Positions 42,127-58,264 of a stretch of DNA of 64,000 bases are shown here, piece after piece; position 1 is the stretch's first letter, and each line of letters starts with the position of its first letter. Location of the stretch: contig JABBOH010000003.1 in the NCBI GenBank assembly GCA_019351895.1, positions 1 through 64,000 of the forward strand, read 5' to 3'. This DNA comes from Pseudomonadota bacterium (lineage in GTDB: Bacteria; Pseudomonadota; Alphaproteobacteria; Acetobacterales; Acetobacteraceae). A program made the translations under genes and the position numbers. The notes beneath the pieces were generated by a model. The model had not been told where the DNA came from. It did not search any database and saw only the letters and a list, made by a program, of their open reading frames with translations.

Positions 42127-42202
42127 GAGCCCGTAGCTCAGCCGGTAGAGCACGTGACTTTTAATCATGGGGTCGTGGGTTCGAGTCCCACCGGGCTCAC
42201 CA
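42127..42202 (+). tRNA. tRNA-Lys (anticodon TTT), CCA encoded; integration target
   Basis: GAGCCCG...CGGGCTC acceptor, CTTTTAA anticodon loop, GTGGGTTCGAGTCCCAC TpsiC arm, A-CCA end. Confidence 0.96.
42156..42202 (+). repeat. attL: 47-bp direct repeat within tRNA-Lys
   Basis: GACTTTTAATCATGGGGTCGTGGGTTCGAGTCCCACCGGGCTCACCA, identical to 59797-59843; flanking bases diverge. Confidence 0.95.
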
Positions 42203-42259
42203 ATGTTTTCAGGGACTTAAGAGCTTCCGGCGCTCCTGTTGCAGTTGGTATTGAGGTTC

Positions 42260-42280
42260 GCGGGTAACGGAGCGGGTAAC
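42260..42280. repeat. Direct repeats GCGGGTAAC x2 (12-bp period), candidate integrase arm sites
   Basis: 42260-42268 and 42272-42280 read directly; same GGGTAAC core recurs near attR. Confidence 0.55.
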
Positions 42281-42313
42281 AAAAGCAGTCTTTTGTTGAA
42301 CCGAATCCCACCT

Positions 42314-42613
42314 ATGCGCTTTTATCACTATGCATATCCGCTATGTGCAGATAGCTTATTACGGGGTGAGTTCGTGCCCTTATCGGAGGACAACCCATTG
42401 CGCTTGTATTCGTTAGCGTCTGAGCCAACCACGTCAGCGGCGCTGCCCGACAAGCGCGAAGAGCGCTCCGAGCCAGAGAGCGTTTACGATTGGGCGCTCG
42501 GACGCCGTCCTGCGGGGACGGCAAAGGAAAGCGCTCACGTCCAGATCGAAAGCGCGGCACGCCATCTTGGTGCGCGCGAACTGGCAAAATTGGTGCGCGG
42601 AGAAGAGATGTAG
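42314..42613 (+). CDS. Hypothetical small protein encoded immediately upstream of SDH protease
   Basis: ATG 42314 (MRFYHYAYPLCADSLLRGEFVPL...), stop 42613, 4 bp before the next ATG. Confidence 0.6.
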   Translation: MRFYHYAYPLCADSLLRGEFVPLSEDNPLRLYSLASEPTTSAALPDKREERSEPESVYDWALGRRPAGTAKESAHVQIESAARHLGARELAKLVRGEEM

Positions 42614-42617
42614 GCGC

Positions 42618-43442
42618 ATGTCGGGTTCTCCGGAACCCTTCCCCCGCGGCATCGGGCTACCGAAGCAGAGCCCGCTGTTTTGGGCGGCAGAAAAAGACAG
42701 GTATCTTCGACAACTTCTGCTTCGCGACTTGGCTGCCCGATGGAAGCGAAGGCAACTTGTTTATTTCACGCGTTGCGATGGTGTCGCTCAGATTGACATG
42801 GACGATGACCGTCCGTTTGCAGAATTACTGTCGGACTGCGGGACTGATCCCATTGATCTGCACCTTGAGACCAATGGCGGCTACACTGACGCTGCTGAGA
42901 AGCTTCTTACCATGCTTCATCCGTACCGGCGGCAACTTCGGGTAATCGTAGCCAGACGTGCCAAAAGCAACGGGACACTTCTTGCGATCGCCGCAGATCA
43001 AATTGTGATGGGCGAAGTATCAGAACTTGGTCCCATCGATCCAAACATCACGTTGGGACCAGGTCAGTCCGTGCCGGCGCAATTTGTCCTGCAAGCGCCC
43101 GGCGCCGACCCGATTCTTCACCAGATTGCGGCGTCGGCAGTCAGTCAAACAAAGGGTCTTGCCACCCAACTTCTGACGACGGGGCAGTTTGCTTCTAAAG
43201 TCGCAGACGTTGCGAAGACAGTGGATGACTTGTCTGGACGAAGCACGTATCCAAGCCATGGCTCGGTGATTGACTGCAAGGAAGCTCAGCGCTTGGGCCT
43301 GAACGTTACCTACTTTGCGCCAGACACTGACGACTGGAAGTGGGTATGGATGTTGCGCTGCCTTTACGAGCAGGATGCGCGACGTAATGGCTTGGTCAAA
43401 ATCTTTGAAGGTCACGCTATTAGCAACAGCGTTAGGCAGTAG
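42618..43442 (+). CDS. Serine dehydrogenase proteinase (SDH_sah / SppA-ClpP-crotonase fold) family protein
   Basis: 'PIDLHLETNGGYTDAAEKLLTMLHPYRRQLRVIVARRAKSNGTLLAIAADQIVMGEVSELGPIDPNI' aligns by eye to the SDH_sah signature with Ser in KSxxT. Confidence 0.8.
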   Translation: MSGSPEPFPRGIGLPKQSPLFWAAEKDRYLRQLLLRDLAARWKRRQLVYFTRCDGVAQIDMDDDRPFAELLSDCGTDPIDLHLETNGGYTDAAEKLLTMLHPYRRQLRVIVARRAKSNGTLLAIAADQIVMGEVSELGPIDPNITLGPGQSVPAQFVLQAPGADPILHQIAASAVSQTKGLATQLLTTGQFASKVADVAKTVDDLSGRSTYPSHGSVIDCKEAQRLGLNVTYFAPDTDDWKWVWMLRCLYEQDARRNGLVKIFEGHAISNSVRQ

Positions 43443-43543
43443 GCATTAGTCGGTAGTCTTTCGCTACCTGAGCATGCTGCGGACCTCCTCAACCTCACGC
43501 CCGCGCCACAAGCGCTTTTCGACAACTGATCTACCCCCCCGTC

Positions 43544-43792
43544 TTACTGCCCGTTCTTGGTCGGCCGGTCGCCCTCTTTCCGGGCCGCCTTCTCGCACTC
43601 AAACTGCCCATGCTCGGTGCGGCCGAACCAGCGCTCGCCCTGGTAGTGATAGACGCGGCTTGCCGTATTGACCCAGACGATGGGGTCACCGGGGCATGAA
43701 ATGTCGGGGTGGACCGGCGGGTAGGTCTTCTTCGCGAGCGCTGGAGCGGCCACGACCATCAAGGCCGCAAGCGCCAGTGCAACAGCGCTCAT
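43544..43792 (-). CDS. Small secreted hypothetical protein
   Basis: Signal peptide 'MSAVALALAALMVVAAPALAK' then 'TYPPVHPDISCPGDPIVWVNTASRVYHYQGERWFGRTEHGQFECEKAA'. Confidence 0.7.
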   Translation of the reverse strand: MSAVALALAALMVVAAPALAKKTYPPVHPDISCPGDPIVWVNTASRVYHYQGERWFGRTEHGQFECEKAARKEGDRPTKNGQ

Positions 43793-43812
43793 GCTTTTTC
43801 CTCCCGCCGCAA

Positions 43813-44079
43813 CTAGCCTTGCTGGGCCAGATCAGAGCATACGCGCAGTGTGCTGGCGAGGGCTTCGGCGCGTTCCTCCGGGTCGTCCGGTAGGTTGCTG
43901 AGGGTGTAGAGGGCCAGGGTGAGAAGACGCTCTTGAAGCTTCTTTTGAGATTTCAGGCGCGGCAGCGCGTCGGCAGGAACGCCGCCGCCGAGGGCGAGGA
44001 CGCCGCCGATCACCGGCAGCGTCTCTTGGGCGAGCTTGACGATCTCGCGTAGCCTCGTCTCGGCACTCAGCTCCGCCAT
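43813..44079 (-). CDS. Hypothetical protein
   Basis: Complete ORF of 88 aa in a compact array with no competing overlap. Confidence 0.55.
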   Translation of the reverse strand: MAELSAETRLREIVKLAQETLPVIGGVLALGGGVPADALPRLKSQKKLQERLLTLALYTLSNLPDDPEERAEALASTLRVCSDLAQQG

Positions 44080-44167
44080 ATTGACTGCAATGACATCATC
44101 CCTTGCTCAGTCTCACGCCCGGTCCGCCGCCATCCTCGGCGATGAACTCAACGCCGGCTGCCCGCCA

Positions 44168-44188
44168 GGGCGCAGCGGGGCTGCGCCC
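44168..44188. terminator. Hairpin GGGCGCAG-CGGGG-CTGCGCCC downstream of the 44192-44500 gene
   Basis: 8-bp perfect stem, 5-nt loop, lies at the 3' side of the minus-strand gene. Confidence 0.5.
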
Positions 44189-44191
44189 CCT

Positions 44192-44500
44192 TCAGTCCAA
44201 GATGGCTGCCCATATCTGAAGAGCGGTTCCAACTGCGATCGCGATCAGGCCTACGAAGGCGTAGTGAGATTGCGAGATTAGGTTCTGCACCGCGGGAAGA
44301 TTCAAGTCCTGCTGCTCCGTCTCGCCGGCAAAGCGCATTACACCAATCTGGACAGCATCATGCGGGGAAACGAACACGCCCTTTGCTGTGACCACTACCC
44401 CAATGAGGGTAAGGATCAGCCCAGCAACCAGCAGCGACTTGGCGACGATGCGGTTCCGGGGATTGTGATATATCTGCCTTAAGCCGCTCAAAGCGTTCAA
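44192..44500 (-). CDS. Small two-TM membrane protein
   Basis: Hydrophobic segments 'VAKSLLVAGLILTLIGVVVTAKGV' and 'YAFVGLIAIAVGTALQIWAAIL'; overlaps the upstream RHH gene by 4 bp. Confidence 0.65.
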   Translation of the reverse strand: MNALSGLRQIYHNPRNRIVAKSLLVAGLILTLIGVVVTAKGVFVSPHDAVQIGVMRFAGETEQQDLNLPAVQNLISQSHYAFVGLIAIAVGTALQIWAAILD

Positions 44501-44694
44501 TCCTTTCCCGCGGCCTTTAGGCTTTGCCCAATCAGGCGGCGGATAGCCTCCGGCCTTGATGGCAGATCGTGCTGAGCGCGGCGCCAGTCATCTATGACCG
44601 CCAGCTGTTGGCGCCCCATACGGACCGTCACCGGCTCAGTGTCGACCGGTGGGCGCCCCCTGGTAGATTTCTTGACATTATCAATTGTTGACAT
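44497..44694 (-). CDS. Ribbon-helix-helix (CopG/Arc-like) DNA-binding protein
   Basis: 'GRPPVDTEPVTVRMGRQQLAVIDDWRRAQHDLPSRPEAIRRLIGQSL'. Confidence 0.75.
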   Translation of the reverse strand: MSTIDNVKKSTRGRPPVDTEPVTVRMGRQQLAVIDDWRRAQHDLPSRPEAIRRLIGQSLKAAGKD

Positions 44695-44787
44695 CTAGAA
44701 TTTATAACGGCATGAATTGCGGGCCGCAAGCGAGTTACGACCTCGCCCGCGGCCCTACCACCACCGCTCTTTAGAGGAGAGACGGCT

Positions 44788-44991
44788 ATGGCTGATCATG
44801 CCCATACCACATCTAGGCCGAAACTAGCCATCAACCGACTAAATCTCGATGATCACCCCGACGGCCTGTTGATGCGCCTCTGCGCCCACCTGGGCCGGTT
44901 GCGCGCTCAGTTGGAGGCGCTGGAGCGCGCTATAGAGTGCATCCCGGCCGTCACCGTCGAGGGCCGCCGTATGAAGGAGTGCTCCCTGTGA
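44788..44991 (+). CDS. Hypothetical small protein (67 aa)
   Basis: First ORF of a four-gene overlapping array; Shine-Dalgarno-like AGAGGAGAG upstream of ATG 44788. Confidence 0.6.
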   Translation: MADHAHTTSRPKLAINRLNLDDHPDGLLMRLCAHLGRLRAQLEALERAIECIPAVTVEGRRMKECSL

Positions 44992-45320
44992 GCACACGCA
45001 AGAAGGGCGGGGCCAGCCATAGCGCCCGCGCTCAGAGCGCGGGCGCTACGCCCCCTCTGCCACCGCGGCCGACGCCCGCCCCCACTGCGGAAAGCCGCGC
45101 GCAGGAGGCTGAGATTTCGAGGATGATCCGCGAGCTTGCGCAGTCCGTCACAGAAACCAACCTGTTGCGGACGCGCCGACTGGTAGACATGGCCCTGCGT
45201 GGCCAAGTGCCGCAGGAGCTGATCGACCACCTCAGCCTGATCGGCCGGGACTACTACAAGCTCGCGGAGCAGGGGCCGCAGAAGCCCACGCTTAGGGTGA
45301 TTGAAGGGGGCGACCGATGA
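44988..45320 (+). CDS. Hypothetical protein (about 110 aa, GTG start)
   Basis: GTGA overlap with the previous stop; '...SRMIRELAQSVTETNLLRTRRLVDMALRGQVPQELIDHLSLIGRDYYKLAEQG'. Confidence 0.6.
   Translation: MSTRKKGGASHSARAQSAGATPPLPPRPTPAPTAESRAQEAEISRMIRELAQSVTETNLLRTRRLVDMALRGQVPQELIDHLSLIGRDYYKLAEQGPQKPTLRVIEGGDR
45020..45048. repeat. Perfect 29-bp palindrome (14+1+14) within coding sequence
   Basis: TAGCGCCCGCGCTC-A-GAGCGCGGGCGCTA read directly. Confidence 0.85.
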
Positions 45321-45514
45321 GCGCCGTCATCATCAAGTTCCCCGATCGGCAACCGGCCAAGCCTCGAGCACCGGCGGCGCCCCCGGCTTCTTCCGCTTAC
45401 TCCGAGCAGCTCATCCTGGACATGCTCCGCGACCTCGCTGCCAAGCTCGGCCTCCCGCCTCTGCACTCCGAGAAGCCCACACGGCGGCCGAGGAAGCCGA
45501 GGAAGCCGAAGTGA
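45317..45514 (+). CDS. Hypothetical small protein (65 aa)
   Basis: ATGA overlap with the preceding gene. Confidence 0.55.
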   Translation: MSAVIIKFPDRQPAKPRAPAAPPASSAYSEQLILDMLRDLAAKLGLPPLHSEKPTRRPRKPRKPK

Positions 45515-45756
45515 GCGTCTCCTTCATCGACCGAGACTACCGCGTCACACCCGCGGAGAAGGCAGCGTGGAGCTTCTACCTATCGCTGCCCGCACCGCTC
45601 ATGCGACCTGCCAAGCGGGCGTTCCGTTCGATCGAGGGAGGGGTGTCGCCTAGCGACGCCCTGACCCGCTTCGTCCTCGACAGCGGTGTGACTGACGCTG
45701 ACATGCTCGGGAGCCTGTGGGAGGCTCTGGAGGGGCTGGCTGGGAATAATGCGTAG
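45511..45756 (+). CDS. Hypothetical small protein (about 81 aa, GTG start)
   Basis: GTGA overlap with the preceding gene; 'FIDRDYRVTPAEKAAWSFYLSLPAPLMRPAKRAFRSIEGGVSPSDALTRFVLDSGVTDADML'. Confidence 0.6.
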   Translation: MSVSFIDRDYRVTPAEKAAWSFYLSLPAPLMRPAKRAFRSIEGGVSPSDALTRFVLDSGVTDADMLGSLWEALEGLAGNNA

Positions 45757-45868
45757 CTTATCGGGAGTTCCCAACTCCCGGTGAGCGCTTCTCTCGATCC
45801 GCTACTTTCTGCCCCCGCTGACCTGTGAGATTGTCGGCCTCGGAAGCGGTCGCGGATGGGAGAGAGGC

Positions 45869-47107
45869 TTGGATTCCCCGAAAAGGATTGAGTGGCTCGA
45901 AGGTCTGCGCGGCGTCGCGTCGATTCAGGTGGTCTTACTGCACTATTTCAGCGCCTTTCTACCTGCGATCGGGCTCTTTGACCCGTCGATAGCGCGCTAT
46001 CGGTGGGAGGAGCTCATCGGCGGGGGTTATGGTTTCATTGTTCTGAATGGCTACGGTGCCGTCTGGATGTTTTTTGTTCTTAGCGGTGTTGCACTAACTA
46101 TCTCATTCAATGAGCGCCCGTTCTCGCTAGCCCCGTCCATCGTGAGACGCATCATTCGTCTTGGATTGCCGATGACGGCCGCCTTGGCATTCGGCGCGAT
46201 TCTTCTACCCACGCTGCCACACGCAGCGACTAATGCAGCTGCGATCACTCGATCCAGCGCTTGGCTTGGAGTGTTGCACAACGAGGCGTTCCACTGGAGA
46301 CACCTCTTCCACCAAGCGTTGATCGAGGGGCTGTTCACGGGCTACTCAGAAGCAAATGTGTTCCCACTCGCGTGGCTATCAGAGCGAGGTATACACCTCA
46401 CCTCTGTGACCCAGTCGCTGAACGCCCCTCTATGGACCTTGAGCATAGAGTTTTACGGCTCCCTTCTTGTTTTGGGGCTCACTGTGATGCGCGCGTCGAT
46501 GCCACGCTGGGCACACTCGCTGGCAACCGTTCTTGTTCTGGTGCTGAGTCTCCCAAGCCCCTTCTGGCTCTTCGTGGCAGGACATCTTCTTGAGCCGATT
46601 GTTCGGCGTCCGCCGCGCCAGCGCTTCTTCCAGTTGCTTGGTGTAGTGCTTGTTGTTGCGGGAGTTGCTCTGTGCGGTGCCGTCCCCGATCGGGCAATCA
46701 TTGAACTCGCGGCCAGGTTTCCGTTGTTTCGGATGGCGGGGCCGCCGCTAACCGGCACGCAGTTCAGCATCGGCGAGACGCTCCTGTTTGTCGGGATATG
46801 CTTAATCCCGGCTCTGAGATCGGGATTGGAAAAACCCTTCCTGAAGAAACTGGGAAAGCTCTCTTTCTCGATTTACCTAGTGCATTTCCCGATTCTTTTG
46901 ACGATCTCCTGCGCGACGTTCCTCCTCCTCAACGGGCACACGTCGTATGCTCTCGCAGCGACTGGCGCCTCGATTGTTGGCATTGGGTTGACTGTCCCCG
47001 TTGCCGTCGCGTTCCAAATGCTGATCGACCAGCCCGCGATAAACCTCAGCCGCCGGGTCGCTCGCTGGCACTTCTTCTCCCCGCAGAAGGTGGCGCAACC
47101 TTCGTAA
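45869..47107 (+). CDS. Acyltransferase family 3 (OafA-like O-acyltransferase) carried by the element
   Basis: 'IEWLEGLRGVASIQVVLLHYFSAFLPAIGL', 'GYGAVWMFFVLSGVALTISF', 'APLWTLSIEFYGSLLVLGL', 'KLSFSIYLVHFPILLT'. TTG start likely. Confidence 0.87.
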   Translation: MDSPKRIEWLEGLRGVASIQVVLLHYFSAFLPAIGLFDPSIARYRWEELIGGGYGFIVLNGYGAVWMFFVLSGVALTISFNERPFSLAPSIVRRIIRLGLPMTAALAFGAILLPTLPHAATNAAAITRSSAWLGVLHNEAFHWRHLFHQALIEGLFTGYSEANVFPLAWLSERGIHLTSVTQSLNAPLWTLSIEFYGSLLVLGLTVMRASMPRWAHSLATVLVLVLSLPSPFWLFVAGHLLEPIVRRPPRQRFFQLLGVVLVVAGVALCGAVPDRAIIELAARFPLFRMAGPPLTGTQFSIGETLLFVGICLIPALRSGLEKPFLKKLGKLSFSIYLVHFPILLTISCATFLLLNGHTSYALAATGASIVGIGLTVPVAVAFQMLIDQPAINLSRRVARWHFFSPQKVAQPS

Positions 47108-47141
47108 TACGGGATGCGGACCTTCCTCTGGAACTCGCATC

Positions 47142-47471
47142 TTAGATCAGACTTCGACGCGAGCACAGCGCCGCCTCCAACAGCCGCCCCCGCTCCTCGT
47201 TCACCTTGGCTAGGAAGGCTTCGACCATCGCTTCCGTGGCGAAGCTACCTGCTACCGTGTGGGAAACCGGCTTGGCCATGTCGCGGACGATCCCCTCCGC
47301 CTGCACGAGAGCCGCCGCGAATAGATCGTCTCCCACGGTGGCGGTCGAGGCGGCAAACTGGATTGCCACGCTGTGGACGGCGCCGAGCAGGATATCGAAC
47401 TTTCGGCGCGCCTCTGCGGCGAGCAACACGCCGATGTCGCCGTCGTCAGGTGGAAGTCGAGTTGCGGTCAT
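47142..47471 (-). CDS. Hypothetical protein, likely last gene of the phage-type operon
   Basis: ATG 47471 'MTATRLPPDDGDIGVLLAAEARRKFDILLGAVHSVAIQF...'. Confidence 0.55.
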   Translation of the reverse strand: MTATRLPPDDGDIGVLLAAEARRKFDILLGAVHSVAIQFAASTATVGDDLFAAALVQAEGIVRDMAKPVSHTVAGSFATEAMVEAFLAKVNEERGRLLEAALCSRRSLI

Positions 47472-47481
47472 GATGTGTTTC

Positions 47482-48372
47482 CTAGTAACCCGGTTGGGAA
47501 AGGGCGTAGGAGAGCGACCACAGCTCCAGACTGCTGAACCATGCGCCGCCCGGTGTGAGGCTTTCGAGTTCGTGCGAGAGGGCGCCGACATACCAATCAC
47601 CGCAAGCGGGCTTTAGACTGCTCGACAACGTCACCGTCGCCCCATATTCGAGCGTCGGATCGAACAGCGCCGTCAGGTCAAAAACCTGGACGCCGTTGAT
47701 GCTGGGGTAGCCGACAAGCCCATTTGCAGGAGAGATCGTCACGGGCGCCACCGGCCGCTTGCCATTGCGCGGCCAAATGTAGAGGCAGCCGTTGTGAATC
47801 TCGCCGTTGATGTTCGCGGCGTGGAAGACACTCCTGATCTGGTCCAGCAGGCAGCCATAGAAGTATGGGTTCGACAGGATGACGTTGACGCCGAAGTTCT
47901 GGAAGTTCAGTGCGGGGGTCATCCTCGCCGCCATCCCCTTCAGAATGTCGGCAACGTTCATGTCGCCCGCGAAGCTGGTGGCGTCTGCGGGCTTCACCAG
48001 GTCGAGCATCCCAGGGAACGCCTCAGCCACGAAGCAGGTCTCGGGCATGCCGCTGTAATCCTGCCACGCGTTGGAAATGACGCCCTCGAAGATCTGGTTC
48101 ATGCCTCCGACAGCGTCTCCAGCGGAGATCGAGAGGGTGTTCAATCTACCGTTGAGCTTCGGATTTCCGCCGAGCGTTGAGAGCTGGTTCATCAGACTTT
48201 GCGACATCCCGTAGATGCGGGCATTCGCGAACCCCATCCCCGGCATCGCAGCACGCTCGATCTGCACCGAGCAGCGGTATCCGGCCAGCGTTACCGTATC
48301 GAAGCCGCTCTCCCCGTAGCTGCCCTGGCCCAGCTTGATCGTGATCGTGATCTGGCGCTCGACGAAGCTCAT
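47482..48372 (-). CDS. Phage baseplate hub-like protein
   Basis: 'MSFVERQITITIKLGQGSYGESGFDTVTLAGYRCSVQIERAAMPGMGFANARIYGMSQSLMNQLSTLG...GDAVGGMNQIFEGVISNAWQDY...' resembles hub proteins of Mu/BcepMu-type tails. Confidence 0.72.
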   Translation of the reverse strand: MSFVERQITITIKLGQGSYGESGFDTVTLAGYRCSVQIERAAMPGMGFANARIYGMSQSLMNQLSTLGGNPKLNGRLNTLSISAGDAVGGMNQIFEGVISNAWQDYSGMPETCFVAEAFPGMLDLVKPADATSFAGDMNVADILKGMAARMTPALNFQNFGVNVILSNPYFYGCLLDQIRSVFHAANINGEIHNGCLYIWPRNGKRPVAPVTISPANGLVGYPSINGVQVFDLTALFDPTLEYGATVTLSSSLKPACGDWYVGALSHELESLTPGGAWFSSLELWSLSYALSQPGY

Positions 48373-49994
48373 TGCATTCCCCCCGATGACGTTATCACGG
48401 AACGATTAGTCACCCGTTTCAGTTCGTGATGAACCGCTTGTGCGATCTTCTGCGGATCACCGCTCGGCACGTTGACGCTCACGTTGATCTCAGTCGCGCC
48501 GTGGTGATGCACAACGCCCGAGGCGTAACGCGACGACGGAGAGCGCAGGCCCTTGAGCACATTCGTGACGCTGCCCGGAAGGCCCGACGCATTAGGTATC
48601 CACATCGAGCCGTTGCCCTCTGCCACCGACATCGCGGAGATCAACGCCTGCGCTGTCTTAGGGTCTCTCAGATCCAGCTTGCTGTCGCCCGTCAGGTTGT
48701 AGCCGTAGCTCTTCATCTGCTTGAGAACAGTAGCCGTGTAGGGGCCGCGGTCGGTCGTCGTCCACGCGGGCACGAGCTTGTTGATCGTGTTGTCGCCGCG
48801 GCCGTAGTCCAGAAGCATCTGGTGGTAGTCAGCCCCGACGCCTGCTTCCATTGACGAGAAGACGGCGAACCCGCCGCTGTCAGCGTGGGCGCCAGGCTGA
48901 CCAGCAAACTTCAGGTTCAGCGGGTTGTTATTCCGCAAGCCCCGCGGCCCAACGCCAGGCAGCGGATTGCTATCGCTCGACGGGAACTGCAGCGCCTCAG
49001 AGACCCACTTATGAACCCAGGCACCAGCCCGGTTAGCATCGCTCTGCATCGCGTTGAGCCCGGAGCCGCTCTCGGTCGTGCTGCTACTCGCAATCAGCTT
49101 GTAGAGGGCAGAGTGCGTGAAACCCTGGACAAAATCCGTCATGGTCCTGGCGAAGGCGGTCATCGCAGGAGCGGCCTGGGCCGTGAGTTCCAGGGTGACC
49201 TGCTCAAACGACTGCCGGAGCAAATTTGTCTGCTCGACCAGCTTCTGCAGCGCCGCTGCCTGGGCGGGCGTCTCGTTGCCCTTCTTCGCCTGGGCGGCGA
49301 GATACTTCGCGACTGCCGCGGGACCCTGCGAAACGACATACGCGGAGCCTTGATCGAGCCCGACCATCCCCTGCAGAAAATACGTCCGTTCGCTCGGCGA
49401 CATCGCCTGCACCGTTCGGTTGGACGCAAGGTCGCGCATGATTTGAGTCGGGTCCTCGCCCGGCCGGATGCCCACCTGAGCCAGTGCCATCATCGCTGCT
49501 GAAGGGCGCTGCCCGAACCGAACCGCCGCCTGCTGACCCGCCAGATTGGCAAGGGACTGCTCGGCTGCCGCGGCGTTGCCGCCGCTAGCCGCCACCGCGT
49601 TGCCCCAGGCGGCAAACTTCGTAACGTCGATACCAGCCATGCTCGCTGCACGCGCAATCGCCGCTCCTGATGCAGCCGTCGACGCAGCATTGAACGCCTC
49701 TTTCAAGGCGCCAAGTCCTACCGCAGCCAGCCCAACATGCATGGCAAGGTCGGCAAAGGGAGCCAGCATAGACCGACCGGATTCCGCCACGCTTTTGCCG
49801 ACCGACGAAGCCTGCACGTCAACCGAACGCAGCGCCGTGTTGGTGCGCTTCGAGTGCTTCTCGATGTCGGTCGCGGTCCGGTCGACGCGGCGCTTCGTAT
49901 CTTCGAGGCTCTTGTTGGCTTCCTCTTGCCCGCGCTTAAAGCCGGTGGCATCGAGGTTTAGCGCAACGATGAGGCTATCAATGATATTAGGCAT
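48369..49994 (-). CDS. Tail tape-measure-like protein with lysozyme-like domain
   Basis: N-term 'MPNIIDSLIVALNLDATGFKRGQEEANKSLEDTKRRVDRT' tape-measure style; C-terminal 'GLRNNNPLNLKFAG...GFAVFSSMEAGVGADYHQMLLDYGRGDNTINKLVPAWTTTDRGPYTATVLKQM' structural-lysozyme-like. Confidence 0.8.
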   Translation of the reverse strand: MPNIIDSLIVALNLDATGFKRGQEEANKSLEDTKRRVDRTATDIEKHSKRTNTALRSVDVQASSVGKSVAESGRSMLAPFADLAMHVGLAAVGLGALKEAFNAASTAASGAAIARAASMAGIDVTKFAAWGNAVAASGGNAAAAEQSLANLAGQQAAVRFGQRPSAAMMALAQVGIRPGEDPTQIMRDLASNRTVQAMSPSERTYFLQGMVGLDQGSAYVVSQGPAAVAKYLAAQAKKGNETPAQAAALQKLVEQTNLLRQSFEQVTLELTAQAAPAMTAFARTMTDFVQGFTHSALYKLIASSSTTESGSGLNAMQSDANRAGAWVHKWVSEALQFPSSDSNPLPGVGPRGLRNNNPLNLKFAGQPGAHADSGGFAVFSSMEAGVGADYHQMLLDYGRGDNTINKLVPAWTTTDRGPYTATVLKQMKSYGYNLTGDSKLDLRDPKTAQALISAMSVAEGNGSMWIPNASGLPGSVTNVLKGLRSPSSRYASGVVHHHGATEINVSVNVPSGDPQKIAQAVHHELKRVTNRSVITSSGGMQ

Positions 49995-50010
49995 ATTGGC
50001 GGTTCCTAAT

Positions 50011-51462
50011 TCAGATGCAGGCGAGGGCTTCTGCGGAGATCCGCATCGGGCGGCGCGTCTTGCTGAGCAGCAGCGCGCCAGCCGCCGCGTTCGCCACGTC
50101 GTCGTGCGAGCCCGGAGCGTGGTCGATTGAGTCTCTGCCACCGCGCGCCACACGACGCTCCAGCCCCACCAGCTGCGACGAGAGGCGCGGCAGATCGAGA
50201 AGGCTGCAGCGCTTGGCGTTCAGAAGTGGCAGCAACTCGCGGTAGAGGTCCGACTTCGGCTTCGCGCACGGCGTGATCGTGATCCCGGCTTTGCGGAAAG
50301 CCTCGACCACCCAGTCTCCGCCCCACCGATCCGCTTCGGCGCGGTTGATGCCGTACGACTTCATCAAGGCGACGAACTCGGCGACAACGTCATCCGGTGA
50401 GAATGGCGGTTTCCGCTCGCGCACGAGATCCAGCACCGCGATCTCGCCTTCTAGATGGGCGATGGACATCGTCATGCTGTCTTGGCCCGAGCCGCCGGCA
50501 GCATCCACGAAACAGCTATAGCGGCGGCCCAGACTGCGAGCTGCGGGCCGCTCAGCCACGCCAGGATCGGTGCAGGCGTCAATGACAGCCTGAGAGACGA
50601 AGTCGTCGATGTCGTCGCGGAACTGTGCGCCATACTCAGAAGCCGCACTGGCAGGATCTTCGTCATAAGCCTCAGCAATGATCGCCGGATCAATGCTCGG
50701 GTTCATGTCCGCGGTTGAGGCCTGCCAGACCAGAACTCGCCCGTTGTCCTGTCCGAAGTGCCGCTTGTAGGTCTGCCACAGCACCCCACGCCGGGCGTAG
50801 GGGCTGGACGCGTTGAGCAAGATCGAGCCCGGTATCGATGCCATGCCAGGACGCAGCGCGCGGAAGATCTCAACATCGGGATTGGCAGTCGCGTCGTCGT
50901 TCCGCCAGAATGCAGTCTCGTCACAGAGCACCGCTGCAAACGAGTAGCCACGCGTCACCCGGAAAGACGCCGTCGCGATCTCGATGACGACGTTGTTCGT
51001 CAGTTCGATGATGTCGGCCTTGTCGTCAGCGATCATCGCCGCCAGTGCCGGCACGTTCTCCAACATCCCGCGCGCGTATCTGTAGATGCTCCGCGCCTGC
51101 TTGCGATCGCTCGCGATGACAGCACACGTCGCCTTCTCTCCGGGCGCTAGAAATTCATCGTAGTTCCTGAAGCAGGCGAGATAGACCGCGATCAGCGCGA
51201 GAATGCGGGATTTGCCCCCGCGTCGGCCGATCACCAGAGCAACCTCATTGAAGGGTGCTACTGGTGCCCCTTGGCGGCCCGTGTGGCGGCGGAACAGCTC
51301 CAGCGCCTCCTCGTCCATCGGGAGTCCAAAGATGGCCGCCAGCACCGCCCGCCAAGGCTTCCACGTGTTGCCCTTGAAGAACGGCTTGAACAACGCCTCG
51401 TTGTCCATCACGTCGAGGATGGAGGCGTTGATGGCCATGTCCTGCTTCGGAGCGCGTTTCAC
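50011..51462 (-). CDS. Phage terminase large subunit
   Basis: Walker A 'VALVIGRRGGKSR', Walker B 'FAAVLCDETAFW', nuclease-type 'CFVDAAGGSGQDSMTMSIAH', 'GSHDDVANAAAGALLL'. Confidence 0.88.
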   Translation of the reverse strand: MKRAPKQDMAINASILDVMDNEALFKPFFKGNTWKPWRAVLAAIFGLPMDEEALELFRRHTGRQGAPVAPFNEVALVIGRRGGKSRILALIAVYLACFRNYDEFLAPGEKATCAVIASDRKQARSIYRYARGMLENVPALAAMIADDKADIIELTNNVVIEIATASFRVTRGYSFAAVLCDETAFWRNDDATANPDVEIFRALRPGMASIPGSILLNASSPYARRGVLWQTYKRHFGQDNGRVLVWQASTADMNPSIDPAIIAEAYDEDPASAASEYGAQFRDDIDDFVSQAVIDACTDPGVAERPAARSLGRRYSCFVDAAGGSGQDSMTMSIAHLEGEIAVLDLVRERKPPFSPDDVVAEFVALMKSYGINRAEADRWGGDWVVEAFRKAGITITPCAKPKSDLYRELLPLLNAKRCSLLDLPRLSSQLVGLERRVARGGRDSIDHAPGSHDDVANAAAGALLLSKTRRPMRISAEALACI

Positions 51463-51809
51463 GCTGACTTGCCCCTTGCAACCACCTCGGCCAATGTCGG
51501 CGCCTTGGGCGCAGGCCCCTTCAGACCCAGTTCACGCAGCAGCCGGGACAGCGACGAACTCCACGCCAGATACGTCGCCGTGTCGTGCTCCGTCATCGTG
51601 CCCATTGCCGTGAACTTGCGGTCCATCGTCGCCACCCTCAGCGACAGGTTCACGATCCGCTCGATCAGCATCGACTGCGTGACGGAGGGCTTGCCGCCCA
51701 CGTGCGCGACCAGGTCGTTCCTGATCTTGCGCATCAGCCGGGCTTCGCTGGAGCGGCCGTCCATCTTCGCCAATGCCGGCGCCCGGCTGTAAGGACCTAT
51801 CTCCGCCAT
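51459..51809 (-). CDS. Putative terminase small subunit / packaging accessory
   Basis: Overlaps terL start by 4 bp; 'ALAKMDGRSSEARLMRKIRNDLVAHVGGKPSVTQSMLIERIVNLSLRVATMD'. Confidence 0.5.
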   Translation of the reverse strand: MAEIGPYSRAPALAKMDGRSSEARLMRKIRNDLVAHVGGKPSVTQSMLIERIVNLSLRVATMDRKFTAMGTMTEHDTATYLAWSSSLSRLLRELGLKGPAPKAPTLAEVVARGKSA

Positions 51810-51814
51810 CGCAC

Positions 51815-52555
51815 TCACCGGTCGGCACCAGGTAGCGGCGCATTCGCGTCCTGCATCAGCGCGGCAAGGGCGTCGTCCCAGACCTGCCGCCCGTTCGCCA
51901 CGAGACCGAGATTGCGCCAAGCGGAAGGCGGCGCGCCACGGCGGTAATTCACGGCCCGCGCATAGTCGGCTTCAGGGCTGTGGATGTCGGTCTGGCTGGG
52001 CGTCTTCGTCGCGATGATGCGACGCGAGATGAGCCATTCCAGCGCGTCTGCCATCTCCAGCATCCGCTTCTGCAGAACGTCGAGCTCAACCACCAACGAC
52101 CGGGCGATGGGGCTCTCGCGGAGGACATCGAGAGCGGCATCACGAACCCGATCAACCATGCGATCAGCGGTCGCCTTCGCCTCGTCAATGCGGCCCGTCA
52201 GACCGTCCCTGGCAGCCCTTGCAAGCTCCAGCGCCTCCTCCGCTTCGGCCAACTCAGCACGCGCCGCCTTGACCGTCTTAGGCGCCTTCCCAGCGCTGCC
52301 AGTGGCGACGGCCGTGAGATGCGATACGGTCGCCGCCTTGGCATCCTCGACCGCCTGGCGCGCAGCCTCTGCGGCTCGGTCTGCGTCAAAGGCGGCGATG
52401 CGCAGGCTCTCGCCAGCCGACGCGAGTTTGCGATGCGTCTCGTCGGCGACCCTCTTCTCCTCAATGGCGATCGCCAGCGCAGCGCGCGCCTGACCGTCAA
52501 AGCCGCTGTCGGCCACCAGCTTCGGGCGCGCCGATGACCTAATCGCCGCGAGCAT
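51815..52555 (-). CDS. Coiled-coil-rich hypothetical phage protein
   Basis: ATG 52555 'MLAAIRSSARPKLVADSGFDGQARAALAIAIEEKRVADETHRKLASAGESLRIAAFDADRAAEAARQAVEDAKAA...'. Confidence 0.6.
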   Translation of the reverse strand: MLAAIRSSARPKLVADSGFDGQARAALAIAIEEKRVADETHRKLASAGESLRIAAFDADRAAEAARQAVEDAKAATVSHLTAVATGSAGKAPKTVKAARAELAEAEEALELARAARDGLTGRIDEAKATADRMVDRVRDAALDVLRESPIARSLVVELDVLQKRMLEMADALEWLISRRIIATKTPSQTDIHSPEADYARAVNYRRGAPPSAWRNLGLVANGRQVWDDALAALMQDANAPLPGADR

Positions 52556-52848
52556 CAGATGCCCCCCGTCTTGGAGCGCGACCGGCCCGGATACCGCTGG
52601 TCGAAGCCTTTTGCGGCAGCAGCGTCCTGCGCCAGTTCGCGCGGCGCCCGCTTGCCCTTCAGCGCGGTGAAGATCGGCTTCATCGACGCATAGGCGGGGA
52701 CGGCCGTGACATCGTGGCCCAGCTTCGCCAGCGCAGCGCGATAGACGGCGTTGGCGGAATCCATGCCCAGGATTTGGCCGGCGTATGGCGCGACCTCGGC
52801 CTCCGCCGCGCGGATGGCCTGCAGTTCTCGGATCGTTGCATTGTTCAT
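52555..52848 (-). CDS. Hypothetical phage protein
   Basis: ATG 52848 'MNNATIRELQAIRAAEAEVAPYAGQILGMDSANAVYRAALAKLG...', abuts next gene. Confidence 0.6.
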   Translation of the reverse strand: MNNATIRELQAIRAAEAEVAPYAGQILGMDSANAVYRAALAKLGHDVTAVPAYASMKPIFTALKGKRAPRELAQDAAAAKGFDQRYPGRSRSKTGGI

Positions 52849-52862
52849 GGTGGTGGTCCTTC

Positions 52863-53192
52863 TTAAAGGGCGAGCCAGGTGTTGGCCGCGGCATACCAAG
52901 TGAGGCGGAGTGTCCCGAGGCTGGCGACGTTCGTCGTGCCTGCAGTTCCATCGATGGTCGATGTCAGCGTGAGAGCGCCGGCACCGAGGTTCTTGATAGT
53001 CAACGGGCAGCCATCGCGCGGACCTGCAGGCAGTGTCAGGGCAATCGCAGAGGCCGATTGCACCAAGCTCATGCGGTCGATGGGCGAGATCGTCCCGCCG
53101 GTCGTGGTGTAGACGTTGCGAACCTGGTCGCCGTGGAAGTTGGGGTTGAGCCCTAACCACTGAGCGAATAGTGCGCCGGTTGGATCAGTCAT
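52863..53192 (-). CDS. Putative phage structural/fibre-like small protein
   Basis: 'TTGGTISPIDRMSLVQSASAIALTLPAGPRDGCPLTIKNLGAGALTLTSTIDG' beta-rich virion-protein style. Confidence 0.55.
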   Translation of the reverse strand: MTDPTGALFAQWLGLNPNFHGDQVRNVYTTTGGTISPIDRMSLVQSASAIALTLPAGPRDGCPLTIKNLGAGALTLTSTIDGTAGTTNVASLGTLRLTWYAAANTWLAL

Positions 53193-53652
53193 TGACGTTC
53201 CTTGTGATCTTGATTGAGAGGGGGGAGGTTTCAGCGTCTGGGAAAGCGCCGAGGATCGATGACCAGACGCGTCTGGCGAAGATGTTGTGGGCGCGACTGT
53301 CCCGAAACTCGACAGCGAGTTCTTGCGTCGACTGCGTGATCGTCACGCGGGGAGGCATCGAGATGACGATCGCATCGTCGGCGCTGCGGATCGCGACGCC
53401 CACGTTGTGAATGATCATGCCCAGTTCGAGGATCATGACACTGGCACGGCCACGGACCCGAAACTTGTCGTTCGGTTCCTTGCGCCGCCAGTTGATCGCC
53501 GCGACGCGGTAATGGCGCGTCAGAGGGGCGGCGTAGATGTCGTCGCCGATTGGGGTATCAGGACGCGCGTCGGAACCCTCCGGTAATGTGCCGGTGATGC
53601 TGTCGGTAGCCTCGCGATACCCTGTCTCAACTGCGTCCAAACCGCACTCCAA
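53185..53652 (-). CDS. Hypothetical protein of the element
   Basis: Overlaps next gene by 8 bp; first gene after the putative origin; start uncertain. Confidence 0.5.
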   Translation of the reverse strand: MECGLDAVETGYREATDSITGTLPEGSDARPDTPIGDDIYAAPLTRHYRVAAINWRRKEPNDKFRVRGRASVMILELGMIIHNVGVAIRSADDAIVISMPPRVTITQSTQELAVEFRDSRAHNIFARRVWSSILGAFPDAETSPLSIKITRNVND

Positions 53653-53919
53653 CGCGCTCTAGTTACCCGTGGGTTACCCACCGGTCTCATACAGAATAAC
53701 ATCTGAGACTAAACTTGTTCAATAACAATAGTTTATAACAAACCCGCACACTTCTGAACATCATGTGCTCATGCGAGGATCGAGCGCGAAAATTCGTCGC
53801 TTTTTTGCTAGGCTATTGTTCCTGCGAGATTGGCGCGTCTCAGCGGAAGCATCTAAGTTCCTGATAAGGCAATATGTTTCTGGTAGAAGTTTCTGACCGT
53901 GCCGAGCAACCTGCCATCT

Positions 53920-54062
53920 GCGGGAGATGCGGGAGATGCGGGACTTGTTTTGGCCGACCCACGGTGGGGAAATGACATTCCGGGAGTTATCCACAGCCCG
54001 GGAATGTTGGTTTGCTCCCGCGTAGCGGCTAAATAAAGTCCCGCAAGTCCCGCAAGTCCCGC
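53920..54062. promoter_or_regulatory. Putative replication origin: inverted triplets of 9-bp iterons around a DnaA box
   Basis: GCGGGAGAT,GCGGGAGAT,GCGGGACTT at 53920-53946; (AAGTCCCGC)x3 at 54036-54062 (reverse complement GCGGGACTT); TTATCCACA at 53987-53995. Confidence 0.75.
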
Positions 54063-54065
54063 AAA

Positions 54066-57000
54066 TCACACTCTGACGGCAACATAGAACGTTGCCATCT
54101 TGGCGTGCGGGTCCTGCCCCGCCTTGAGCGTCAGCGTCCGTTCCCCAGCCATAACGGGCTCTCCTACCCTCGCCTTCAGCCGCTTGCCGGCCGCCATGGG
54201 TGACACCGGCTGAGCGTGAGGCAGGGTCGGGAACAGGAACTCGCGGACAACTATCGCGCCCTGCTTCTCCCATTCCGGACGGGCTTCCCAAGTGTCATTG
54301 AGGAACTTCACCAACTCCGATGCAGAGAAGGCCCTGTCTTGGAACTTTGCGTGGAGGGCTGACAGCGCGTCCACAAGGGCAGCGCCCTCCTCATCGTCAA
54401 CCTCTTGGGTCATGAACACATCGCGGAAGTGCAGATCATGTCCGTTGAGCGATGCAGCGTGCTCCACAGCCGAGCCGACCAGCCTCCACCAGCCCTTGAA
54501 CCTTGTCTCGCCGGCTTCGGCGCGATGCGGATTGCCGAGCAAGATGAGGTACAGGGCGCGCAGGATCTTCCCGCGGTTCGCTTCTGTCCAGGCGATCGGG
54601 TCAGGGTGCTTGAACTGGCGGTTCTCAGGATCGGCTCGGTCCACCTCGATGCGGGCCTGCAGGCTACGCGAAGCCAGGTCGCCTTTGGGGGCGATATTGT
54701 TGCCGGTGAAGGTCAAGATCGTGGACGATGACACGGTGACGGTCTGGCTCACTCCCAGAACGCGGTCAGAGTAGGTCGCCGAGGTGAGCGCCTTCTCGAT
54801 GTGCGGGCACGACAGCTGAGCGCCGCGGGGGATGTTGTCATAGATGAGGGCAGGCAGCCCTTCCATGAGATAGGCCAGCAGGCCTTTGCGGCGCTCCTCA
54901 TCATTGGTGCTCCAGGCTGCTGCGCACGGCCGGACGCCGGTTGCCGCGGCCATCACCATGCCGAGTGCCGTTGTCTTGCCACCGCCGCGCCTACCGGCTG
55001 TGACGAAGAACGCGGGGCGCTCGGGCAGGAAGGCGCGCTCAATGATTGTAAGCGCCGCCGTCACCAGCACGGCTTTGCCGGTGTCGTCGGTCAGCACGTC
55101 GAAGAGCCAATCGTTGACCAGGAAGTCATAGGCGGCTCGGATGCGCTCGTCGGTGATGGTGCCCAGGTTGTCGGTGTATTTCAGGATCTCGGGCGCCACT
55201 CGGAACAGCAGCCCAAGATCGCGATCAAGGCCATTCTTGGCGCGCAGGTTGCCGTCGAGCCCGACGAGCGGCAGCGTCGAGACGCCGGTCACCACGGGCA
55301 AGGCTGTGTCGCTGCGTTGCAGGTAGTGCTTCACGAAGCCAGAATTCAGATGAACCGGGATACCGTCCTTCGTGACGTATTCGATGTGGCGCTCGATCAG
55401 TTCTGACAGTTGAGCTTCGTCAAGACGGGTCAGGAGCGGCTGCTCCGGCGCCGGAAGCCGAGTGTCTTTGGTGTCGCCGTCGTTGCTGCTCTGCGCCGTA
55501 AGTGAGTGAAGGTCGGGCACACGACGCACGCGGACTTGGGTGACGACGCCGTCTATATCTCGCATGGGCGGTTCCTGCGCCTTGGAGGACGACAGCACGT
55601 CATTGAGCGCGCCCATCACGGGAAGCCATTCGGCTTCATTGTCTGGTGCGTCGAGCTGAGGTCGGGTGTCCTTCCGCATGGCGGCGCGGCGGTTCTTGGC
55701 TTCCTCAGCATCGCGTGCCTTCTTCGCCTTCTGCGCACCCTTTAGTTTCTCCATGAGCGTGCGCTTACCGATTCCACTGCGTGCTGAGGCGACGTTGCGC
55801 AGGTCCTCCAGCTCGGCCGGATCGAGATCGCCGCCGACGGCCACGTCAACGAACACATCGGTTACCCGCGCGTCATCTGCCGCGTCGATTGCTGCCCGTG
55901 CCGCGGCGGCGTCGAGCTTCAATTCGTAGATGGTCCGGCCGTGGGCGAAACTGTGTATCCAGGGTGTGCCGTCAGCGCGGCGCATGACCATGGCCTTGGT
56001 CTTGCCGTATTGGATGCCTTCAAGCGGGTCAGCTAATGTCTCACCGACATAGGCGGCGGACGTGGCCAGCACGTCAGCGACGGTGACGTTGGCAAGCGCC
56101 GGATCATCGAACGGCAGGACAATGCCGGGGTGCAGGACACCTTCGCACTGCCGGATGATCGCCTGGCGCGCGATTGAAAGGGACACGGACGTGCGTTCGG
56201 CGAGGGCCTTGGATTGCTTGACGATGAAGCGCTCGCGCTCAGCCGCGCGATCTGGCGTGAGTGCGTCGGCAGACTTCGCCTTCATCTGCTTTAGGTCAGC
56301 CGTCTCAACGATCCGCAGCGGCGGGCACGCCTCGCGAGTATCGAGCACGTCGCCATCGTAGGCCACGGCATCGCGGGTGGCTTTATCCTGATGCAGCGGC
56401 GCCTCGACGACGGGTGAACCTTCGAACACCAACCGCTCGGCGGCGTGCACCATGCGGTCGACGAGGCTGCGGTCAAGGAGCTGTCCGCCCGCGCCGACCA
56501 TGTGCCACCCCAAGCCCGCCAGCCAGCAGCGGTCATGCAGGGTATAGAGGAAGCGCTCAGCGTCGGCGCCGTCAGCGATGTGCAAGTAAATGTGCTGGCC
56601 ATTGCTGCCGGGCATGTCCTCGCCCGTATCCGTGCGGCTGAGGCCCGAACTGGTAGAGTTCCGAACGATGCGAGCGGTGGTCGCGAGCGCGGGCAGGACG
56701 CTGCAGAGGGCGGGCCAGTATCCGCCTTCGGCGGAGATGCGGGCCTTGATGGCGTCCGGCATTCCTTTGACATCGACATCGATTAGCGCGAGCGCAGGTT
56801 GACCAGCCTGATAGGCGATGAAGTCTGCCGTGCGTGCGATGAGGTCGGGTGTAGCTTTCCCGTTCAACCCGGCTAGGCGTGTCTGCGTCGTGACGTGCAG
56901 TTCGGTGCCCAGGTTGCCGCGCAACCGGCCGAGCGACAGAGCGTCGGTCGCGGGCATGTCGCTGATGAAGGCGGCAGCGGACGATAGATCGGAGAAGCGA

Positions 57001-57128
57001 GCGCGGCGGGCAACACCGGTCGACATAGTGCAGGCGCTGCCGTCGCTGATGAGCTTTCCATCTTCGTTGAGAAAGATGCGCTTGGTGAGCGGGCCGCCCA
57101 TCTTCGTATAGTGCACAAGCTCGATCAT
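54066..57128 (-). CDS. Large primase-helicase (AEP-like primase N-terminus, P-loop helicase C-terminus)
   Basis: N-term 'ALALIDVDVKG...SSGLSRTDTGEDMPGSNGQHIYLHIADG'; C-term Walker A 'FFVTAGRRGGGKTTALGMVMAAATG', 'LIYDNIPRG', 'LTFTGNNIAPKGDLASRSLQARIEVDRAD'. Start 57128 or 57176. Confidence 0.83.
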   Translation of the reverse strand: MIELVHYTKMGGPLTKRIFLNEDGKLISDGSACTMSTGVARRARFSDLSSAAAFISDMPATDALSLGRLRGNLGTELHVTTQTRLAGLNGKATPDLIARTADFIAYQAGQPALALIDVDVKGMPDAIKARISAEGGYWPALCSVLPALATTARIVRNSTSSGLSRTDTGEDMPGSNGQHIYLHIADGADAERFLYTLHDRCWLAGLGWHMVGAGGQLLDRSLVDRMVHAAERLVFEGSPVVEAPLHQDKATRDAVAYDGDVLDTREACPPLRIVETADLKQMKAKSADALTPDRAAERERFIVKQSKALAERTSVSLSIARQAIIRQCEGVLHPGIVLPFDDPALANVTVADVLATSAAYVGETLADPLEGIQYGKTKAMVMRRADGTPWIHSFAHGRTIYELKLDAAAARAAIDAADDARVTDVFVDVAVGGDLDPAELEDLRNVASARSGIGKRTLMEKLKGAQKAKKARDAEEAKNRRAAMRKDTRPQLDAPDNEAEWLPVMGALNDVLSSSKAQEPPMRDIDGVVTQVRVRRVPDLHSLTAQSSNDGDTKDTRLPAPEQPLLTRLDEAQLSELIERHIEYVTKDGIPVHLNSGFVKHYLQRSDTALPVVTGVSTLPLVGLDGNLRAKNGLDRDLGLLFRVAPEILKYTDNLGTITDERIRAAYDFLVNDWLFDVLTDDTGKAVLVTAALTIIERAFLPERPAFFVTAGRRGGGKTTALGMVMAAATGVRPCAAAWSTNDEERRKGLLAYLMEGLPALIYDNIPRGAQLSCPHIEKALTSATYSDRVLGVSQTVTVSSSTILTFTGNNIAPKGDLASRSLQARIEVDRADPENRQFKHPDPIAWTEANRGKILRALYLILLGNPHRAEAGETRFKGWWRLVGSAVEHAASLNGHDLHFRDVFMTQEVDDEEGAALVDALSALHAKFQDRAFSASELVKFLNDTWEARPEWEKQGAIVVREFLFPTLPHAQPVSPMAAGKRLKARVGEPVMAGERTLTLKAGQDPHAKMATFYVAVRV

Positions 57129-57355
57129 ACGCGGCGGCCCCGCATCGCTTCGGCCCATTCGGCGAGCGAAAGCCATGGACCATTCGGCTTGGACGTTGTA
57201 TCAATCTTGCCGGTTCTATCGCCTTCGACTGTCGCCCGCGGCGCTGTGTCACCAGTGCCCGGGCGTTTTCGTTCCAGAGGCGGTGCCAACCACCTTCGAC
57301 TGAAGTTGTAGTTCTTTGCGGGATCGCTCATGGCGGCGTATACGGCAGCGTCCAT
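57125..57355 (-). CDS. Hypothetical small protein (76 aa)
   Basis: ATGA overlap with the primase-helicase start at 57128. Confidence 0.5.
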   Translation of the reverse strand: MDAAVYAAMSDPAKNYNFSRRWLAPPLERKRPGTGDTAPRATVEGDRTGKIDTTSKPNGPWLSLAEWAEAMRGRRV

Positions 57356-57357
57356 GA

Positions 57358-57603
57358 TCAGGCTGCCTTCTGCACACGCGCAGCCTGCCAGCGACGCAGA
57401 TCACCAAGACGCCAGTAGTTGCGGCGATTGATCTGGATAGGCTGAGGGAACTGCACCCGCTCATCGCGGATCCAGCGCCAGATGCACATGTGCGACACGT
57501 TGCCGACGCGCGCCCGGGTCTGGTTGCTGGTGAGCAATGTATCGTCGTCAGTAGAAGCCGTCGTGTCCGCCGGCTCTCTGTGGTGTCCTGAAGTCTGCAG
57601 CAT
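57358..57603 (-). CDS. AlpA/MerR-type helix-turn-helix regulator (excisionase-like)
   Basis: 'LLTSNQTRARVGNVSHMCIWRWIRDERVQFPQPIQINRRNYWRLGDLRRW' typical AlpA arrangement. Confidence 0.82.
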   Translation of the reverse strand: MLQTSGHHREPADTTASTDDDTLLTSNQTRARVGNVSHMCIWRWIRDERVQFPQPIQINRRNYWRLGDLRRWQAARVQKAA

Positions 57604-57655
57604 GTGGCCTCCGTTCCATTTGGAGGCCTCTAGTTATCGGGTGTGATAACGTGGG

Positions 57656-58264
57656 TCAGTCACGCGATCGGGGCGCAGGTTTGGTGATGGTCTTGGAGCG
57701 TCTTGGGCTCTGCCGTGCTTTGGACAAGCGGTTTCTGAAGGCGAGTGCGCTAATGCTTTCCTGCTTCTGTATCAAGTCAGAGAGAGAGCCCTGCACTTCT
57801 TTCCGGAGTTGCCGATGGTCCTCCAGCTGAGGACTGTCGTGTATGGAAAGGTGTAAGTCATCTGAAGTCTCCCGATCATGACGCTGGAAGGCGCTCCAGC
57901 CCTTCCTGACAAATCCCAGGGCCTGTCCGACGTAAGATGACCGCTTGTCGGTATACCCCCCCTCTGCGTCGGGTACTTGACGAAGCGCTCCCACCTCATC
58001 GAAAGGAATGCTTGGCAACGGACGTTCGTCTGCAGGATCGATGCCCAAGGACAAGCGCCCGATCTTCTCGGCGCACTGCGCAAGGTAGCTGTTCATCCAA
58101 TCTGGCATCGGATATGGGGTTAGCCCGCGCTCTGCCTGTTTGCGGTTGTGCTTAGTCAGGCGCTCGATCGCATCCCAGGCTGCGATCACGTCTCCATCCT
58201 GAGAGTATCTGTCGCGCAGGTCATCCAGCGCACGAGAAAGGGTGCTGTCACTGATCTGCGTCAC
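57656..58264 (-). CDS. Hypothetical protein translationally coupled to the integrase
   Basis: 4-bp overlap with the int stop; 202 aa. Confidence 0.6.
   Translation of the reverse strand: MTQISDSTLSRALDDLRDRYSQDGDVIAAWDAIERLTKHNRKQAERGLTPYPMPDWMNSYLAQCAEKIGRLSLGIDPADERPLPSIPFDEVGALRQVPDAEGGYTDKRSSYVGQALGFVRKGWSAFQRHDRETSDDLHLSIHDSPQLEDHRQLRKEVQGSLSDLIQKQESISALAFRNRLSKARQSPRRSKTITKPAPRSRD

Follow-up and report, generated by a model that had tools for sequence, protein, structure and literature searches.

The window analysed here, a 64-kb stretch of DNA from a member of the Acetobacteraceae, contains two inverted triplets of 9-bp repeats directly behind a primase-helicase gene, and this raises the question of whether the block is a replication origin and, if so, which protein would read it. 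The distal array, on the forward strand at 53920-53946, consists of the iterons GCGGGAGAT GCGGGAGAT GCGGGACTT, and the proximal array, on the reverse strand at 54036-54062, of three copies of GCGGGACTT, seen on the forward strand as (AAGTCCCGC)x3; both read inward. Between them lies the consensus DnaA box TTATCCACA (53987-53995, forward strand), bracketed by CATTCCGGG at 53976-53984 and CCCGGGAATG at 53997-54006. The stop codon of the primase gene occupies 54066-54068, so the gap between it and the proximal array is 3 bp. The triplets, the central box, its bracket and this gap had been listed separately in a preliminary description of the locus, and all of them were letter-exact on recheck. 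The gene itself had to be redrawn at its other end, because the longest open reading frame spans 54066-57176, not 54066-57128. These repeats and the box are one structure, an imperfect dyad of 151 bp (53916-54066, no strand) with arms of 69 nt each (53916-53984 and 53998-54066) that are 71% complementary, a centre of 13 nt and an axis at 53991, on which the DnaA box is centred; the bracketing words form the inner ends of the dyad (53976-54006, no strand). With the iterons left out, the inner arms gave a self-alignment score of 31, against 2.8 ± 5.2 for shuffles.

The structure proved rare. The triple iteron occurred once per strand in the 4.7-Mb host genome and nowhere else in it, and was absent from 298 sampled genomes of the same order. 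Scanned strictly for inverted tandem 6-mers, the window gave one match, the 53916-54066 site, and the same kind of scan gave three matches in 2.0 Mb of dinucleotide-shuffled DNA; a far looser criterion, allowing up to 3 mismatches per copy, was satisfied in 4 of 60 shuffled windows. The spacer was only mildly GC-poor (0.58, against 0.63 in the primase gene). A clearly AT-rich stretch (up to 72% AT) was seen at 53700-53740, about 180-220 bp outside the distal array, and is a possible unwinding or promoter region.

The dyad lies in a 17.7-kb element (42156-59843) integrated in tRNA-Lys and bounded by 47-bp attachment repeats of the 3' end of this gene. The repeat at 42156-42202 is the 3' end of the intact tRNA-Lys, and the identical one at 59797-59843, also on the forward strand, was recognised as a tRNA remnant. 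Read leftward, the element encodes a tyrosine integrase (58261-59634, reverse strand), a small AlpA/excisionase-like DNA-binding protein (57358-57603, reverse strand; phrog_66, E 4e-6) and the primase-helicase (54066-57176, reverse strand), followed by the dyad, a short protease-like gene, the element's own terminase large subunit (50011-51462, reverse strand), a tape-measure-like gene, a baseplate hub and then other genes, including those for an acyltransferase and a ClpP-like protein. Apart from the tape-measure-like and baseplate-hub genes (47482-50153), few virion genes were found in the element. The genes for the ClpP-like serine protease and the acyltransferase, at 42567-43442 and 45869-47107, are possible cargo. 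The integrase, the AlpA-like regulator, the primase and the origin site share one direction, as is expected of Gram-negative PICIs, and the order int-alpA-pri-ori-late genes is that described for these islands (PMC10111431, PMC6092414). We nevertheless did not file the element as a PICI because its tail-type genes misfit the satellites described in PMC10111431, where tail markers are present in none of 273 other satellite models; it is either a satellite or a reduced prophage. The GC-skew minimum over the whole element fell at 52660 (block-shuffle P 0.0055), and this turn near the dyad agrees weakly with an origin.

The presumed initiator has 1036 amino acids, with an N-terminal primase (phrog_16593) and a helicase like phrog_10537. 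Searches of Pfam and NCBIfam gave no primase match at the thresholds used, and a profile search of PDB sequences with the primase returned nothing relevant. The AlphaFold model of residues 560-1036 had a mean pLDDT of 83, and its top Foldseek matches in the PDB were 7ola, 7pds and 7om0, all SaPI5 PriRep1 (E 2e-6, with a TM-score of only 0.37), followed by viral D5/E5 primase-helicases with low TM-scores. The last 112 residues (925-1036, encoded at 54069-54404 on the reverse strand) formed a confident domain, with a pLDDT of 91 and a winged-helix-like order of helices and strands, and we presume that this C-terminal domain reads the iterons; its isolated model had no significant Foldseek match in the PDB.

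Whether the layout is a property of this gene family was addressed with relative loci that had been retrieved by primase protein and not by repeat. Relatives on viral contigs were found with an alignment of close relatives; a single-protein search of these contigs gave no matches, and a 16-sequence alignment was too diverse. Primases of the direct relatives were 40-56% identical to that of the window. In nearly all primase relatives the primase gene was followed directly by two sets of two to three 9-bp iterons that face inward, and the iteron word changed from locus to locus (TGCGGGACT, TGCGTAGGT, TGTGGAACC and GTGGAAACC are examples). An array immediately 3' of the primase gene was also present in eight direct relatives. 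Inverted sets flanked a spacer of about 75-100 bp right past the stop codon in L194 and L196 (both TGCGTAGGA), L195 (TGCGCAGGA), L278 (GTTGCGCAG), L280 (AGAGGGGAA), L281 (TGTGGAACC), L282 (TGCGTAGGT), L283 (TTTGCGGGT) and L285 (GTGGAAACC, two plus two copies). The preliminary description had counted homologues that keep the primase and lack the repeats against an origin; most direct relatives keep the arrays, with other words. In L284 the array lay past one further gene, about 400 bp further on, and in genome G019 (L060/L167) it was about 5 kb from the primase. No array was found beyond the primase in L197 by the scoring scan, in the 229 bp past the primase of L286, or beyond the primase gene of several phage and plasmid relatives, and none was clear in the stretch examined in L287. 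The primase and helicase are apparently fused in some members and split in others, the helicase part being a separate open reading frame of about 490-550 amino acids in L281, L282 and L194.

Arrays of 9-bp period were also counted family by family, with near-duplicate loci included in the counts. Past the primase gene, 66/67 phrog_2249 loci scored at least 6 (0/246 among control pieces from these loci), as did 4/5 direct-family loci (1/72 control pieces) and 20/77 loci from a third family (7/348 control pieces); at a score of at least 5, the third family had 38/77 loci against 13/348 control pieces. In non-redundant cases the spacer was 53-137 bp long, and its GC content was below that of the gene in 31 of 31 (mean -16 points). 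A central hairpin was rejected as a general feature, its spacer fold z-scores, which averaged -1.2, being suggestive only. The arrangement extends to the 6.5-kb Psychrobacter plasmid pA32H2, where three plus three GGTAGGGAT iterons were found 103 bp past a primase-like gene, and in Shewanella phage SFCi1 the array stands in front of its gene, not behind. Of 54 viral contigs that matched the bare iteron pattern, most had a single array and no inverted partner, many of these resembling coding repeats; the later analysis excluded them and was confined to arrays past primase genes.

One part of the putative origin did not follow the iteron word. In the window, the inner box TTTTGGCCG (53948-53956, forward strand) adjoins the distal array and TTTAGCCG (54026-54033, reverse strand) the proximal one, and the former is kept in relatives with other iteron words. 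In an alignment trimmed by eye, TTTnRGCC(GG) stood 0-3 nt inward of the array in most arms of the direct family, and the constant TTTnRGCC box was seen in the window (both sides), L167, L194, L195, L278 and L281-L285. Since the box stays constant while the word changes, box and iteron are constrained separately. Loci of the third family (e.g., L211, L213, L265 and L276) repeatedly show AAACTGTC some 20 bp inward of each array, as a second symmetrical element of those putative origins.

Across 11 direct relatives, iteron distance correlated with C-terminal distance (Mantel r 0.60, P 0.0009), and its correlation with helicase distance was r 0.26 (P 0.06); the partial r for the C-terminus given helicase divergence was 0.63, in a test with arrays trimmed by hand and statistics that ignore kinship. 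In the 24 loci of the third family, iteron divergence correlated with both the C-terminus and the helicase core (0.58 and 0.66), and C-terminal specificity was rejected there as inseparable from overall divergence (partial r -0.03). Single loci point in the same direction as the direct family. The primases of L060/L167 and L284 are 85% identical and their origin flanks are alike, with iterons GTTTCCCAG versus GTTGCACAG, and L127, the only close family member in which SPNQSRKRF replaces the HPDRARKRY of about sixty relatives, has GTGCAAGGC where these have GTGCGGGAC. Both comparisons are informative natural swaps. Whole modules also seem to move. Two elements of 16.2 and 16.5 kb, L288 and L290, have terminases related to that of the window (52% and 42%, respectively) and inverted iterons (TGTAGC at 3998-4097 and GTCCGC at 5026-5336) directly after primase genes unlike the window's; the replication modules look as if they were swapped as a unit between such elements.

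This anatomy is that of known satellite origins. The C-terminal domain of the SaPI Rep reads iterons that directly follow the rep gene, apparently as two hexamers, and SCCmec initiators likewise bind iterons directly downstream of their gene through this domain (PMC7581432). In PICIs the origin is located 3' of pri-rep, with two sets of iterons always flanking an AT-rich region, and a pri-rep-ori construct has been tested for plasmid maintenance (PMC6092414). The origins of SaPIbov1, SaPI5 and E. coli PICIs (Ubeda et al., cited in PMC7581432; PMC6092414) served for comparison. As in these, the site is directly 3' of the primase-helicase gene and has two opposed iteron sets around a spacer, the initiator helicase is predicted to have the SaPI5 PriRep1 fold, and the gene order runs int-alpA-pri-ori-late genes. 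Unlike them, it belongs to an Acetobacteraceae element that carries terminase, protease and tail-type genes, its spacer is just mildly AT-rich, and it has a full dyad, constant inner boxes and, at the axis, a DnaA box that fits the consensus. The putative origin of SCCmec Cch2 also has iterons directly downstream of a gene for a SaPI5-Rep-like helicase, bound by the C-terminal domain, a reading that we presume for the window; it differs in having three 5-nt iterons (AAGTG), against two inverted 9-bp sets (PMC7581432). The PLE RepA origin (PMC7145576) also serves a satellite, whose own initiator binds the iterons there, but RepA is a RepA_N initiator without primase or helicase, and PLE repeats are semi-palindromic and about 30 bp long (PMC8263062), against the 9-bp iterons here.

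The preliminary description had assigned the initiator to the P4 alpha type. The alpha protein of P4 is a primase-helicase initiator that binds short iterons (ori/crr), and P4 uses two separated sites. Set against this general description of P4, a primase-helicase initiator stood as proposed, with one compact dyad in the window instead of two sites, and SaPI/PICI elements are the better comparison because SaPI5 PriRep1 is the closest solved structure and the origin anatomy is theirs.

Other functions for the dyad were weighed against an origin. The iterons could be operators that let the primase, or some other protein of the element, control transcription of the late genes (53652 leftward) or its own level, with replication secondary; the array does separate the primase from the late-gene block, which share a strand, and iterons can serve both replication and control. 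No sigma-70-like promoter was found in 53600-54300, though, and the large two-arm symmetry, the position past primases with differing downstream genes and the same structure after the primase-like gene of the 6.5-kb plasmid fit an origin better, which leaves control as the main role improbable. If the primase gene ended in a transcription terminator or an RNA element, a hairpin-forming dyad directly 3' of the gene would be accounted for, and one weak terminator-like match was found at 54056-54040. Such matches were not more frequent than in shuffles (1 versus 0.9), no Rfam family was found at the site, and an RNA hairpin leaves the 9-bp tandem period and the concerted change of all copies unexplained; we consider this explanation scarcely credible.

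A contribution of host DnaA would add to an origin bound by the primase-helicase and not compete with it. DnaA would bind the central TTATCCACA and open the DNA or load helicase at the axis alongside the element's protein. The box is exact, is the only TTATnCACA on either strand of the window and sits on the axis, and none of 500 shuffles of the window spacer contained it. Against this, just 2 of the 112 non-redundant regions downstream contained a consensus box, the spacers of ten relatives had none and matched the consensus no better than shuffles, and the predicted helicase type is held to self-load (PMC7581432). The use of DnaA suggested in the preliminary description was therefore rejected as a general feature and conserved component; the box would be a lineage-specific feature or chance, outside the conserved design, and its use in this one element appears unlikely.

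We conclude that 53916-54066 very probably serves the tRNA-Lys element as its replication origin, of the SaPI/PICI type and presumably bound via the C-terminal domain of the element's own primase-helicase, as supported by the SaPI/PICI-type anatomy and by the layout kept in relatives; an origin for the excised element, proposed in the preliminary description, is thus well supported. We infer that the element would excise and its primase-helicase would then bind the iterons through the C-terminal domain. Each array of three inward-facing iterons most likely seats one helicase hexamer, and the two hexamers, facing each other, would melt the lower-GC spacer, so that bidirectional replication could start, primed by the fused primase.

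As far as sequence comparison can tell, this origin type would be new to the host group. It would also belong to a wider pattern of constant layout and rewritten address words: the same layout, with other 9-letter words, stands by primase genes in many phages and satellites and in at least one plasmid. A broader proposition, which we hold tentatively and rate somewhat below an even chance, is that a portable half-origin is common to the self-loading primase-helicases found in phages, satellites and small plasmids. It would be made of a fixed inner box, a fixed spacing and two to three 9-bp iterons as a lineage-specific address, rewritten in every copy at once when the recognition residues of the C-terminus change. 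If this is true, a layout that was described in 2018 as confined to PICIs would be a general class of phage and plasmid origins, its specificity code would be readable from sequence, and the axial DnaA box would be a local hand-off to the host. The analysis supplies an origin that can be tested for a family of small, uncharacterised elements of Acetobacteraceae. It also suggests that a simple rule, a primase gene followed by inverted 9-bp iterons, can locate the origins of phages with primase-helicases, and the near-isogenic natural pairs, L060/L284 and L127 versus its relatives, could yield the DNA-recognition code of these initiators.
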